The position numbers and the translations under genes are program-made. Positions 10,185 through 40,954 of a stretch of 64,000 nucleotides of DNA are shown here, in pieces. The first letter of the stretch is position 1. The number at the start of each line of letters is the position of its first letter. The notes under the pieces are model-generated. The model did not search any database, had not been told where the DNA came from, and saw nothing but the letters and a program-made list of their open reading frames with translations. This stretch comes from Phycisphaerae bacterium (GTDB lineage: Bacteria; Planctomycetota; Phycisphaerae; Phycisphaerales; Phycisphaeraceae), in NCBI GenBank assembly GCA_030425705.1, contig JAUHZU010000012.1, forward strand, positions 1 to 64,000. The letters are read 5' to 3'.

Positions 10185-11639
10185 CTAGCCGAGCAGGGAC
10201 AGGACCGACTGGGCGGTCGAGTTTGCGATGGCGAGGGTGGATGTGCCGGCCTGCTGGAGGATCTGGGCCCGGGTCAGGGCGGCGGTTTCCTCGGCGAAGT
10301 CGGTATCGCGGATGGCGCTCTCCGACGAGGTGAGGTTTTCCAGCGCGATCTGTTGCGATCGGAGGGACGTGTCGAGCGTGTTGCGTTCGAACGAGCCCAG
10401 CCGGCCGCGGAGGACGGAGACCTGGTCGATCGCGGCGTCGATGATGTCGGACGCGCCGCGGGCGTTGCCGGCGACCAGGGAGTTGGCCTGGCCGGCGACG
10501 ATGGAGTTGAGGTAGCCGACGCGGGCGTTGCCCAGCCGGGAGGCGGCGACGGACTGGATGCCGAAGCCGACCTGTTGCTGGGTGTTGATGTCGCCGCCGA
10601 TCTGGTAGGTCGCCCCGCCGCCGGTGATGGTGTAGGTGTAGGGCGTGTTGAGGACTTGGGCCGCGCCGGAGGTGAGCGTGAGCTGGACGTTGAGCGTCGG
10701 GGAGTTCACCGCGATGTCCAGGCCGTCGCCGAGCGCGAGGTTGCCGTTGATGAGGGCGAGGGTGTCGGCCCCGATGTCGCGGACAACCGCGGCACCGCCC
10801 TGGGCGTCGTAGGTGTTGAAGAACTCGCCACCGGTGAGCTTGTTGACGCTGACGAAGGCATCGGATCCGTACTCGATGGACTGGAGGATCAGGCCGGACG
10901 TCGGGTCCCCCGCCGAGGCGAGGACGGCCTGGACGCCGGTCGCGTCGCTGACGGCGTTGATGGCGACGGCGACGGCGGAGAGCGAGGTGCCCGAGGCGAA
11001 GTTGAACGCCTGGACCCCGGTACTGCCCTGCAGCTCGAAGCCGACGGCGGAGGTGAACGTGCCCGTGCCGTTGCCCGAGAGGAACAGCGAACCGTGCTCG
11101 GCGGAGTTGAGGACTTCCACCGTCACCGGGATGTTGGTGTTGAGCCCGAAGTTCGCGCCGTTGATCTGGATATCGCTGATCTGGCTGGTGACGACGCCGG
11201 AGGTGAGGTAGTCCAGCGATCCGTTGAGCAGCTTCAGCCCGGCGAAGCTCGCCGTGTTGGAGATGCGTGTGATGGACTCGATGGCGGAGTCGATCTGGAG
11301 CTGGTTGGCCTTGATCTCTTCCTTGGAGAACGCGCCGGTGTTGGCGGCCTCGACGGTGAGGGCCTTGATCGAGACCAGGAGGTTGTTGATCTCCTGGAGC
11401 GCCCCCTCGGTCGTGGCGATGACGTTGGAAGCGCGTTCGATGTTGTCGACCGACTGGCCGATGCCCGAGATCTCGGTGCGGAGGCGTTCGGAGACGATGA
11501 GCCCGGCGGGGTCATCCGCGCCGCGGTTGATCCGCAGGCCGGTCGAGAGCCGCTGGAGTCGTGTGCTCAGGTCCGTGTTGGTCCGCGCCAGGTTGTTCTG
11601 GGCGATCAGCGAGGAGACATTGGTGTTAATCCGGCTCAT
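10185..11639 (-). CDS. fliC: Flagellin
   Basis: Structural subunit of the flagellar filament. The conserved N-terminal D0/D1 coiled-coil region is clear (INTNVSSLIAQNNLARTN, then QRLSTGLRINRGADDPAGL), as is the C-terminal region ending in STLAIANSTAQSVLSLLG. Between them, about 200 residues form a variable surface domain rich in Gly, Thr and Asn. Length is 484 residues. The ATG at 11639 is chosen because AAGGAGG lies ten bases upstream; an in-frame TTG three codons earlier abuts that Shine-Dalgarno and cannot use it. The Shine-Dalgarno sits in a hairpin loop described separately, and csrA and fliW lie just upstream. Confidence 0.96.
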   Translation of the reverse strand: MSRINTNVSSLIAQNNLARTNTDLSTRLQRLSTGLRINRGADDPAGLIVSERLRTEISGIGQSVDNIERASNVIATTEGALQEINNLLVSIKALTVEAANTGAFSKEEIKANQLQIDSAIESITRISNTASFAGLKLLNGSLDYLTSGVVTSQISDIQINGANFGLNTNIPVTVEVLNSAEHGSLFLSGNGTGTFTSAVGFELQGSTGVQAFNFASGTSLSAVAVAINAVSDATGVQAVLASAGDPTSGLILQSIEYGSDAFVSVNKLTGGEFFNTYDAQGGAAVVRDIGADTLALINGNLALGDGLDIAVNSPTLNVQLTLTSGAAQVLNTPYTYTITGGGATYQIGGDINTQQQVGFGIQSVAASRLGNARVGYLNSIVAGQANSLVAGNARGASDIIDAAIDQVSVLRGRLGSFERNTLDTSLRSQQIALENLTSSESAIRDTDFAEETAALTRAQILQQAGTSTLAIANSTAQSVLSLLG

Positions 11640-11643
11640 GGTT

Positions 11644-11663
11644 GACAAACCTCCTTGTTTGTC
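11644..11663 (-). promoter_or_regulatory. Hairpin presenting the flagellin Shine-Dalgarno in its loop (putative CsrA site)
   Basis: On the minus strand the leader reads GACAAAC-AAGGAG-GTTTGTC: a perfect 7-bp stem whose 6-base loop is the ribosome-binding site, four bases before the flagellin ATG. CsrA-family proteins bind GGA in hairpin loops; the core here, ACAAGGAGGT, differs from the E. coli SELEX consensus ACARGGATGT at one position. Structure and spacing are seen directly; CsrA binding is inferred. Confidence 0.7.
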
Positions 11664-11702: not shown

Positions 11703-11739
11703 GGGTGGGCCGGCTTCTCGCTCCGCGTGTGGCCCACCC
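11703..11739 (-). promoter_or_regulatory. Second flagellin-leader hairpin with GGA in its loop
   Basis: A 9-bp perfect inverted repeat, GGGTGGGCC/GGCCCACCC, encloses a 19-base loop containing GCGGAGC on the minus strand. It lies between csrA and flagellin, 40 bases upstream of the Shine-Dalgarno hairpin. It could be a second CsrA contact or a processing/attenuation element. It has no T-tract and is not a standard terminator. Confidence 0.4.
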
Positions 11740-11764: not shown

Positions 11765-12043
11765 TTACCCCCCGGGGGTCTGGTCGATCTTTGCACGGGG
11801 GACCGACCGCCCGTTGCGTTTACGCAGGTTCTGATCCACGCTGCCCAGGTCGTCGACCTGGACACGGCTGGCGTCGGCGTTCTCGCGTCGGATGGCCTCG
11901 TAGACCTCCTTGCGGTGGACGTGGACGGTCCGCGGCGCGTTGATCCCCAACCGGACTTTGTCGCCCCGGATGTCGACGACGGTGATCTCGATCTCGTCTC
12001 CGATCATGATCGTCTCGTCGCGTTGACGGGATAGCACGAGCAT
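11765..12043 (-). CDS. csrA: Carbon storage regulator / translational repressor CsrA
   Basis: Small dimeric RNA-binding protein that blocks ribosome access at GGA-containing leaders. The start [16 protein letters not shown] and the segment [22 protein letters not shown] are diagnostic. At 92 residues it is longer than E. coli CsrA (61); the C-terminal tail of about 35 residues is charged and Pro/Lys/Arg-rich. An extended C-terminus is typical of CsrA proteins antagonised by FliW. fliW lies immediately upstream and flagellin immediately downstream. AAGGAAGGAG precedes the ATG, and a GGA hairpin lies in its own leader, suggesting autoregulation (inference). Confidence 0.96.
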
Positions 12044-12075: not shown

Positions 12076-12097
12076 GCCCCGACATCCGTGTCGGGGC
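12076..12097 (-). promoter_or_regulatory. Hairpin resembling the CsrA SELEX site in the csrA leader
   Basis: In the fliW-csrA gap the minus strand folds as GCCCCGACA-CGGA-TGTCGGGGC: a perfect 9-bp stem with a CGGA tetraloop. Its centre ACACGGATGT matches the E. coli CsrA SELEX consensus ACARGGATGT at nine of ten positions. It ends 32 bases before the csrA ATG and is followed by a GGA-rich Shine-Dalgarno. No T-tract follows, so a terminator is unlikely. Confidence 0.6.
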
Positions 12098-12150: not shown

Positions 12151-12597
12151 TCAGGCGCTCTGGGCATGCACGGGTGCGGACAGTTCCACCAGCGGCACCC
12201 GCGTCGTGAACCGGCGGTCGCTGAGCACGAGCTGCTCGCCGACGCGGTCGGTCACGTGGATCACCAGCGGCCCCTGCAGGTTGCCCGTCAGGGTCTCGCC
12301 GCGCTTGTTGACGATCACGAGGACCTGCGCGTCGTCGACGCTGTGGATCCCGATCTCACCCATCTGCTCGGGGCGGATCGGCACCTTGTACGTCGGGACA
12401 AACAGCGACGGGTCGGTCACCACAAAGGCCAGGTCCGGCACATCCACCGACTGCAGCCACCAGAAGTAGCTGTCCTGGCCGGACTCGATGAGCACGTAGC
12501 GCTGGTACTTGGGGAAGCCCAGCAGGCCCTTGGGGAAGGTGATGACCCGGTCGTCGCCGACCTCGATCTCGCCGAAACGTGAAGAGCTGACTCGCAT
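12151..12597 (-). CDS. fliW: Flagellar assembly factor FliW
   Basis: FliW binds both flagellin and CsrA. When secretion depletes cytoplasmic flagellin, freed FliW sequesters CsrA and restores flagellin translation (known for Bacillus and Campylobacter). The 148-residue sequence has the family pattern: RFGEIEV, ITFPKGLLGFPKYQRYVLI, WWLQSVDVPDLAFVV and a C-terminal NLQGPLVIH segment. The start MRVSSSRFGEIEV at 12597 is preferred to an ATG three codons earlier, because AAGGA lies eight bases before it and homologues begin here. The gene lies between flgL and csrA. Confidence 0.95.
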   Translation of the reverse strand: MRVSSSRFGEIEVGDDRVITFPKGLLGFPKYQRYVLIESGQDSYFWWLQSVDVPDLAFVVTDPSLFVPTYKVPIRPEQMGEIGIHSVDDAQVLVIVNKRGETLTGNLQGPLVIHVTDRVGEQLVLSDRRFTTRVPLVELSAPVHAQSA

Positions 12598-12662
12598 CTT
12601 CGACATCCTTATGCAGCCATCCATCCTGGTTCAAGTACCCGTCGGGACGTCCTGTCCGGGCC

Positions 12663-39940: not shown

Positions 39941-40633
39941 TTACTTCTTGTCTTCGGCCGGGGGCGGCATCAGCACCTCGTCGACCAGGCCGTACTCCGC
40001 GGCCTCCTTCGCCGAGAAGAACTTGTCGCGCTCGACATCCTTGGCCACCTGCTCGACCGACTGCCCGGTGTAGCCGGCCAGCAGCTCGTTCAACTCGTCA
40101 CGTGTCTTGAGGATCGCCTCGGCCTGGATCTGGACATCGGTCGTCTGGCCGTAGACCCCGCCGTAGGGCTGGTGGATCATCACCTTCGCGTGGGGGAGGC
40201 AGTAGCGCTTGCCCTTGGCCCCGGCGGCGAGGGTGAGGGCTCCGCCGGACATCGCCTTGCCGACGCAGTAGGTGGCGACGTCGCAGCTGATGTGGCGCAT
40301 CGTGTCGATCATGGCGAGGGTGTCGTCGACGCCGCCGCCGGGCGAGTTGATGTAGAGGTGGATGTCCTGGCCGGGCTTGTGGTTGGCCAGGTGCAGGAGG
40401 CGCATGACGACACCCATCGCGCTGCCGTGGTGGATCTCACCGATCAGGAAGATGATGCGGTTTTCGAGCAGCAGCTCGTCGATGGTCATCTCGCGGTAGC
40501 GCTGCATCGGCCCGGCGAGGCGGGGGTCGGCGTAGCGCGGGTCGCGATCGGCCCCGCCGGCAAACAGCGCGTCCGCGGGCGCGGTCATGAGTTCCGGGGA
40601 GCGGGCGAGGAGGGCGAAGGGGTCGTGGGGCAT
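39941..40633 (-). CDS. clpP: ATP-dependent Clp protease proteolytic subunit
   Basis: Serine protease that forms a tetradecameric chamber and works with ClpX/ClpA-type unfoldases. The catalytic Ser lies in KAMSGGALTLAAGAKGKRY (about residue 129), the His in MIHQPYGG (about 154) and the Asp in the C-terminal DVERDKFFSAKEA region. IHLYINSPGGGVDDTLAMID is conserved. The Ser context is MSGG rather than the usual ASMG. About 45 residues precede the core; a later start at 40588 is possible. No clpX is adjacent, suggesting one of several ClpP paralogues, as planctomycetes often have (inference). Confidence 0.92.
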   Translation of the reverse strand: MPHDPFALLARSPELMTAPADALFAGGADRDPRYADPRLAGPMQRYREMTIDELLLENRIIFLIGEIHHGSAMGVVMRLLHLANHKPGQDIHLYINSPGGGVDDTLAMIDTMRHISCDVATYCVGKAMSGGALTLAAGAKGKRYCLPHAKVMIHQPYGGVYGQTTDVQIQAEAILKTRDELNELLAGYTGQSVEQVAKDVERDKFFSAKEAAEYGLVDEVLMPPPAEDKK

Positions 40634-40954
40634 GGGCGTGGGCTCGTGGGGGAGTTCGTCGTCCGGGTCGCACCCTCGTCAACTACAGGTACGACATGGG
40701 TCTGCCGTCGATCCGTCGACGGCCGGGGCATGATAGCCCTGTGTCTGATCGGCGGGAAACGGGCACGGCATCAAGCGAATTCCCCGGATGCGCTACACCC
40801 CACCACGCAACAGGACGCCGACCGATAAACGGGGGCGTCCTGAGCCGGGGATCGGGTCTCGGGTGATGCGTGAGCCGTGAAGCCGGTGAAGCGACGTGTG
40901 GGTCTCGGTCGTGCCTCGCAATGCCTCGCGCTGCGGATCGGGTCTCGGGGGGGC
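40634..40954. other. Intergenic stretch upstream of clpP
   Basis: No convincing gene. It holds a perfect 15-base direct repeat, GGATCGGGTCTCGGG, at 40850-40864 and 40935-40949, and an 8-bp inverted repeat AGGACGCC/GGCGTCCT (40813-40820 and 40835-40842) that could end the upstream coiled-coil gene. The clpP promoter should lie here but no box was identifiable. Confidence 0.4.

Follow-up and report, generated by a model that had tools for sequence, protein, structure and literature searches.

A covarying hairpin around the flagellin Shine-Dalgarno sequence as a predicted CsrA operator in the Phycisphaerae

In the genome of a Phycisphaerae bacterium, the ribosome-binding site of a flagellin gene forms the loop of a hairpin downstream of fliW and csrA, which raises the question of whether this hairpin is an RNA site through which CsrA, opposed by FliW, controls flagellin translation in a planctomycete. 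We addressed this in the window, i.e., the whole stretch of 64,000 nucleotides that was analysed (contig JAUHZU010000012.1), and across the genomes of the class. On comparative sequence grounds, we consider it highly probable that the hairpin acts as a CsrA translational operator in a FliW-CsrA-flagellin homeostat with csrA autoregulation.

Genes and hairpins of the cluster

The minus strand of the window carries fliW, csrA and flagellin in that order, with three hairpins between or before them:

12151..12624, minus strand: fliW, 157 aa as the longest ATG frame (PF02623, E 5.8e-34)
12076..12097, minus strand: csrA leader hairpin GCCCCGAC-ACGGAT-GTCGGGGC, perfect, 32 nt upstream of the csrA start codon; putative site of CsrA autoregulation
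11765..12043, minus strand: csrA, 92 aa with a C-terminal extension (PF02599, E 2.4e-25)
11703..11739, minus strand: upstream hairpin in the flagellin leader, from the centroid structure, with a 9-bp stem and a 19-nt loop
11644..11663, minus strand: flagellin leader hairpin GACAAAC-AAGGAG-GTTTGTC, predicted to be a CsrA site from sequence, fold, conservation and covariation
10185..11639, minus strand: flagellin gene, 484 aa, with its ATG at 11639-11637, from Pfam and translation

The initial annotation had named csrA and fliW as the two genes immediately upstream of flagellin in a bacterium with L and P rings. Both statements hold, as the Pfam matches place csrA and fliW next upstream on the same strand and identify FlgK, FlgN, FlgI (P ring) and FlgH (L ring) further upstream. 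The flagellin itself matches Flagellin_N (E 5.9e-32) and Flagellin_C (E 5.2e-16). The CsrA of the window carries L4, V42, R44, I51 and N55, and its best solved relative is the CsrA of the FliW-CsrA complex 5dmb; the FliW matches the solved structures 2aj7 and 5dmb_A. Translation of fliW likely starts nine codons inside the longest frame, at MRVSS, the methionine of which is kept in 137 of 141 class loci.

Read from 11663 to 11644, the flagellin leader consists of GACAAAC, AAGGAG and GTTTGTC, followed by AACC and the start codon, in exact agreement with the earlier description of a perfect hairpin that has the ribosome-binding site as its loop and ends four bases before the ATG. The Shine-Dalgarno sequence AAGGAGG thus lies in and beside an ANGGAN hexaloop, a loop described for the CsrA homologue RsmE in PMC7652899. 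The 7-bp stem exceeds what CsrA would need, since the SELEX hairpins reported for CsrA in the same source mostly have four or fewer contiguous pairs. In a 42-nt leader this stem is the minimum-free-energy fold, at -8.2 kcal/mol; 24 of 200 shuffles are equally stable (z = -1.25), so that the energy of a single sequence proves nothing, and, with z = -0.61 in a second test of this leader and z = -1.74 for the csrA leader, folding energy was dropped as uninformative. The leader holds no second ANGGA. Its only other GGA, in the 19-nt loop of the hairpin at 11703..11739, reads GCGGA, and this hairpin is a weak candidate for a second CsrA contact.

The rarity of such hairpins was gauged in 456,236 bases of the genome (the window and 392,236 further bases), which contain 522 perfect hairpins with a 6-nt loop and at least six Watson-Crick pairs. 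ANGGAN forms the loop of three, where about two are expected from uniform loop use; by number, ANGGAN hairpins are not enriched. All three have at least seven pairs (0.7 expected), and two fall in the fliW-csrA-flagellin cluster, in the flagellin leader and in the csrA leader, which is an unusual placement. The third, GCCGTCG-ACGGAT-CGACGGC (40704-40723, minus strand), lies about 70 nt upstream of a frame at 39941-40633 that was named ClpP-like by eye, and may be there by chance. Genome-wide, the pattern ACANGGANGT gave 99 sites against 82 for its reversed control; this is no useful enrichment and was not used to define a regulon. Between 11600 and 12200 neither promoters nor terminators were predicted, and no known RNA family was matched at the Rfam gathering score in the whole window.

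Conservation and covariation in the class

Of the 298 genomes of the class Phycisphaerae, 224 gave a match to the N-terminal part of the flagellin. Subtraction leaves about 155 that encode FliW as well as flagellin, and the main flagellin leader was read in 142 genomes; second flagellin copies (L101, L102 and L275-L282) stand outside all of these main-leader counts. L239, where flagellin lies about 5 kb from fliW, was omitted. In 141 of the 142 genomes, fliW and csrA are found upstream of flagellin on the same strand (88/88 and 51/52 loci in two batches, with L022 and L032 added).

The sequence CANGGAGG is present in 138 of 141 class leaders. The A of the loop precedes N in 139 of 141, and N is A in 54, C in 37, T in 26 and G in 24. 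This combination of a fixed A and GGA with a free N is as in the ANGGAN motif of PMC7652899; a bare Shine-Dalgarno sequence would be expected to favour A at N. Pairs 1 to 5 of the stem are formed in 139, 139, 120, 112 and 114 of 141 leaders, two rows being misplaced, and pairs 6 to 8 in 64, 52 and 28; most of the window's family continue the stem to 7 bp. In this register, 94 of 141 leaders have five or more contiguous pairs and the other 47 have fewer. If the stem is instead sought around every GGA up to 25 nt from the start codon and the best one kept, at least 5 bp are reached in 95 of 141 flagellin leaders, against 11 of 141 csrA and 6 of 141 fliW leaders. Two loci of one genus (L241 and L244, with CGTGGAGG) were anchored on the wrong GGA; their stem is short either way and both the 94 and the 95 are unaffected. 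Regardless of stem, 56 of 141 csrA and 20 of 141 fliW leaders have CANGGA in the 25 nt next to the start, and ANGGA occurs in 19 of 27 flagellin leaders of FliW-less genomes, so little weight can be put on the short motif by itself.

Covariation of the two sides of the stem was examined in two tests. The first, a shuffle test, took one leader per genus out of the first 88 (70 leaders, 64 distinct rows); 92.2% of cells were paired against 86.5% after shuffling, and the covariation score was 0.204 against 0.126, with none of 500 shuffles as high on either measure. Changes on both sides are seen in four of the five pairs, which 7 of 500 shuffles equalled. A control in which the register was slid separates from the real stem on percent paired and covariation score only; its double-changed cells at +1 to +3 numbered 11, 11 and 14 against 13, i.e., not clearly fewer. 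The second test mapped changes by parsimony onto a tree of 141 rows, built with FastTree from FliW and CsrA, with independent columns as the null. Double changes that preserve a pair numbered 18 (null mean 3.5, maximum 14, 18 reached in 0 of 200 simulations) and pair-breaking changes 36 (null mean 61, minimum 42, none of 200 as low). As many paired cells as observed, 624 of 705, arose in 11 of 200 simulations, and compatible changes on one side only showed no excess (22, null 29.6). The A-U that the window has for U-A at pair 2 is one of the double changes and recurs in L268. Conservation of the stem in relatives had been put forward at the outset as a point on which the idea would stand or fall; judged from these alignments, the stem is conserved well beyond chance, and with compensatory changes.

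Several lineages carry variants of the element. In five loci of one family (L230, L231, L238, L254 and L256) the leader reads CCGTTC-ANGGA-GGATGG, with the register shifted and the stem kept around a 5-nt loop with two G-U pairs; such loci are scored as short-stemmed among the 141. In one genus (L043 and kin), where the stem at the Shine-Dalgarno sequence has decayed, a hairpin with an ACGGAG loop, of 5 bp when one G-U is allowed, lies just upstream. A second flagellin of another genome (L275) has GTATC-ACGGAC-GATAC before its ATG, a CsrA-type loop that is not a good Shine-Dalgarno sequence. Further upstream, at the place of a second site, ANGGAN hairpins with at least four Watson-Crick pairs are found in 8 of 139 class leaders (0.3 in shuffles) and in 4 of 13 leaders outside the class (0.1 in shuffles). 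The control loop NAGGNN, which overlaps ANGGAN in that AAGGAT fits both, also gives 8 of 139 in the class, and the claim of an upstream second site is therefore kept weak.

The csrA leader and the association with FliW

The csrA leader has a CsrA-type hairpin of its own, which the initial annotation had missed. The element at 12076..12097 folds as a 9-bp stem with CGGA as its loop; an in-frame ATG lies inside it, from which the list of open reading frames extends csrA to 106 aa. We scanned the last 150 nt or less upstream of csrA for ANGGAN loops closed by at least five Watson-Crick pairs and found them in 33 of 141 class loci (shuffle mean 0.13, maximum 1). Each of six control loops gave 0 of 141, and versions of the loop with 5 or 7 nt gave only 2 of 141 each. 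The stems of these hairpins are unrelated, and stems that differ so widely around a kept loop are a sign of a protein reading the loop. Of the 94 loci whose flagellin stem reaches 5 bp, 28 belong to these 33, as do 5 of the other 47.

Outside the class, 80 FliW-bearing genomes were listed and 40 FliW loci taken, 35 with csrA beside fliW and 13 with flagellin in reach; several of the remaining loci end at a contig end. None of these 35 fliW-csrA pairs has an ANGGAN hairpin in the csrA leader, and their median fliW-csrA gap is 19 nt, against 183 nt in the class. The flagellin stem is short or absent in several of the 13. Within the class, the csrA hairpin is also missing from all 30 csrA leaders taken from FliW-less genomes.

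The association between hairpin and fliW was also approached from the other direction, by a pattern made of the hairpin and the flagellin start and blind to fliW, which was run over a collection of genome contigs. It matched at least 119 stretches; among the 80 matches listed with titles, 79 bear planctomycete names and one is Leptolyngbya sp. PLA1. All 108 matches with at least 1 kb of upstream sequence have csrA and fliW upstream, in a set that partly overlaps the 141 genomes. For the converse, 69 class genomes with flagellin have no FliW match, from which 30 loci were taken and 27 flagellin starts retained (minus L377, L387 and L394). A stem of at least 5 bp occurs in 0 of these 27 leaders, the starts taken for L378 and L401 being doubtful, and CANGGA in 3. 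These genomes mostly have a divergent flagellin type, so that ancestry confounds this control; four of them (L373-L376) have the usual type, in mostly incomplete genomes, and three of the four have CANGGA.

The CsrA sequences divide along similar lines. L4, V42, R44, I51 and N55 are each present in 141 of 141 CsrA proteins of the FliW-bearing class set, all of which are 71 aa or longer. Position 55 was read in 30 of the 56 FliW-less class genomes with a CsrA match (L403-L432), and is K in 23, N in 2 and another residue in 5; position 51 is I in 29 of the 30. According to PMC7829508, V51 and N55 are FliW contacts of CsrA in C. jejuni, and N55 also in B. subtilis. N55 is a CsrA residue that tracks the presence of FliW.

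Alternative readings and a proposed circuit

Folding energies that are not significant, and three ANGGAN hairpins among 522, which is near expectation, would suit a chance palindrome around a Shine-Dalgarno sequence. This is hardly credible, and we regard it as refuted by the conservation across the class and the covariation on the tree; the placement of two of the three hairpins in one cluster also speaks against it. The inverted repeat could instead be a DNA operator for a transcription factor, in keeping with a fairly uniform stem sequence, as much of the class has CAATC/GATTG. However, pair 3 is G-U in 21 of 141 leaders, a pair that forms in RNA and breaks a DNA palindrome, and thus points to an RNA element. 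The distance of the element from the flagellin start codon is near-fixed, and the csrA leader hairpins share its loop and not its stem, which makes a DNA operator very unlikely.

Closer to the evidence is a hairpin that serves, without CsrA, to present the ribosome-binding site or to stabilise the mRNA of a very abundant protein. Flagellin is made in bulk, the Shine-Dalgarno sequence does sit in the loop, and both stem and loop are conserved. We nevertheless think it unlikely, as a nearly fixed loop A with a free N fits CsrA better than pairing with the anti-Shine-Dalgarno, and as hairpins with the same loop occur away from the Shine-Dalgarno sequence in most of the 33 csrA leaders concerned and, in some flagellin leaders, further upstream. 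The L275 loop, a poor Shine-Dalgarno, and the absence of the stem from the FliW-less leaders examined point the same way. It is also conceivable that CsrA binds and FliW is not its antagonist, control being exerted by an sRNA, for example, or FliW merely accompanying flagellin. The contact between FliW and CsrA is a predicted one here, and the genome has a second, short CsrA. Against this stand the joint occurrence of I51 and N55 with FliW and the near loss of N55 without it (though I51 stays), the solved FliW-CsrA complex as best match of the window CsrA and the adjacency of fliW and csrA in all but one of the class loci, and we hold such an arrangement to be quite unlikely.

We therefore return to a CsrA operator and propose the following mechanism, in which CsrA binding, repression, antagonism by FliW, binding of flagellin to FliW and csrA autorepression are all modelled on known systems. 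A CsrA dimer would bind the ANGGAN loop that holds the flagellin Shine-Dalgarno sequence and keep the 30S subunit off. FliW would bind CsrA at the helix behind the RNA pocket (I51/N55) and at the C-terminal extension, and the message would be released. Unsecreted flagellin would bind FliW and so free CsrA, such that flagellin made but not exported would shut off its own synthesis. By binding the hairpin in its own leader, CsrA would further limit its own production, which would hold it near the level of FliW. Four parts that such a circuit calls for are present in the window: a fliW homologue, a CsrA with R44, V/I51, N55 and an extended C-terminus, a sequence and structure motif that is the predicted CsrA site over the flagellin Shine-Dalgarno sequence, and a CsrA-type hairpin in the csrA leader. 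The suggestion that the FliW-CsrA-flagellin feedback operates in a planctomycete thus gains support from the hexaloop, the covarying stem, the FliW-contact residues and the way in which hairpin and N55 are largely missing without FliW.

The core of the circuit is of a known kind, and the csrA hairpin may make it a variant. It seems to us somewhat probable that a second RNA loop was gained in this class. Through CsrA hairpins in a widened fliW-csrA gap, CsrA would repress its own synthesis along with that of flagellin, and one kind of RNA element would then also hold the FliW:CsrA balance on which the flagellin threshold depends. Where FliW is missing, so are the flagellin hairpin, the csrA hairpin and, in nearly all cases, N55, as if these had been lost together.

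The parallel first drawn was with B. subtilis. It stands in that the same three components (Hag, FliW and CsrA) and the FliW contact N55 recur (PMC6529632, PMC8523840, PMC7652899, PMC7829508); the closest parallel that we found, however, is flaA of C. jejuni (PMC4894983). B. subtilis is Gram-positive and has two CsrA sites in the hag leader, where CsrA occludes the Shine-Dalgarno sequence, and in the portions of PMC6529632, PMC8523840 and PMC7652899 that were available this site is not described as a covarying hairpin loop. C. jejuni is Gram-negative, and PMC4894983 describes ANGGA in the loops of leader hairpins with compensatory changes among relatives, a second stem-loop that covers the ribosome-binding site, as the window hairpin does, and antagonism of CsrA by FliW. 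Its 45-nt leader has two such stem-loops against one clear ANGGAN hairpin in the window. Unlike in C. jejuni, as far as that account goes, fliW, csrA and flagellin are here adjacent, and part of the class has a further ANGGAN hairpin in front of csrA. Analogous to the predicted autoregulation is E. coli CsrA, which binds its own message over the Shine-Dalgarno sequence and inhibits its own translation; there, CsrA is opposed by the sRNAs CsrB and CsrC, and fliW is absent from the Gammaproteobacteria (PMC7652899, which also describes the FliW mechanism). A term search of the available text of PMC6529632, on B. subtilis, found no mention of autoregulation, and the titles and abstract openings of the literature matches listed report none for csrA in FliW systems.

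The initial annotation knew of no description of this control in planctomycetes. That stands for the flagellin leader, for which the literature matches listed include no study of FliW-CsrA in Planctomycetes or Phycisphaerae; the use of FliW by the phylum had already been suggested, as PMC4682653 lists Planctomycetes among the groups that may use it. Separately, csrA of Planctomycetia has been linked with sigma-54 promoters (PMC12316311). A well-understood motility homeostasis loop would be carried into a phylum for which the literature matches listed gave a prediction from gene presence only (PMC4682653). The conservation of the hairpin suggests that the feedback known from Bacillus and Campylobacter matches flagellin supply to need here as well, the hairpin provides a putative RNA operator that lends itself to direct tests and has compensatory variants in nature, and the predicted csrA autoregulatory site bears on how the FliW:CsrA balance is set.

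The same genome has two further flagellins (L101 and L102, at C14:426959-429473), with no csrA or fliW match upstream; their leaders keep CGGAGG but form stems of 2 bp at most. It also encodes the second, short CsrA (C4:114370-114534; L002 1501-1701). Gap placement in the alignment is ambiguous at N55 of this protein, for which we make no claim. The protein has 66 aa from its conserved start, is 40% identical over 62 positions and lies away from fliW.
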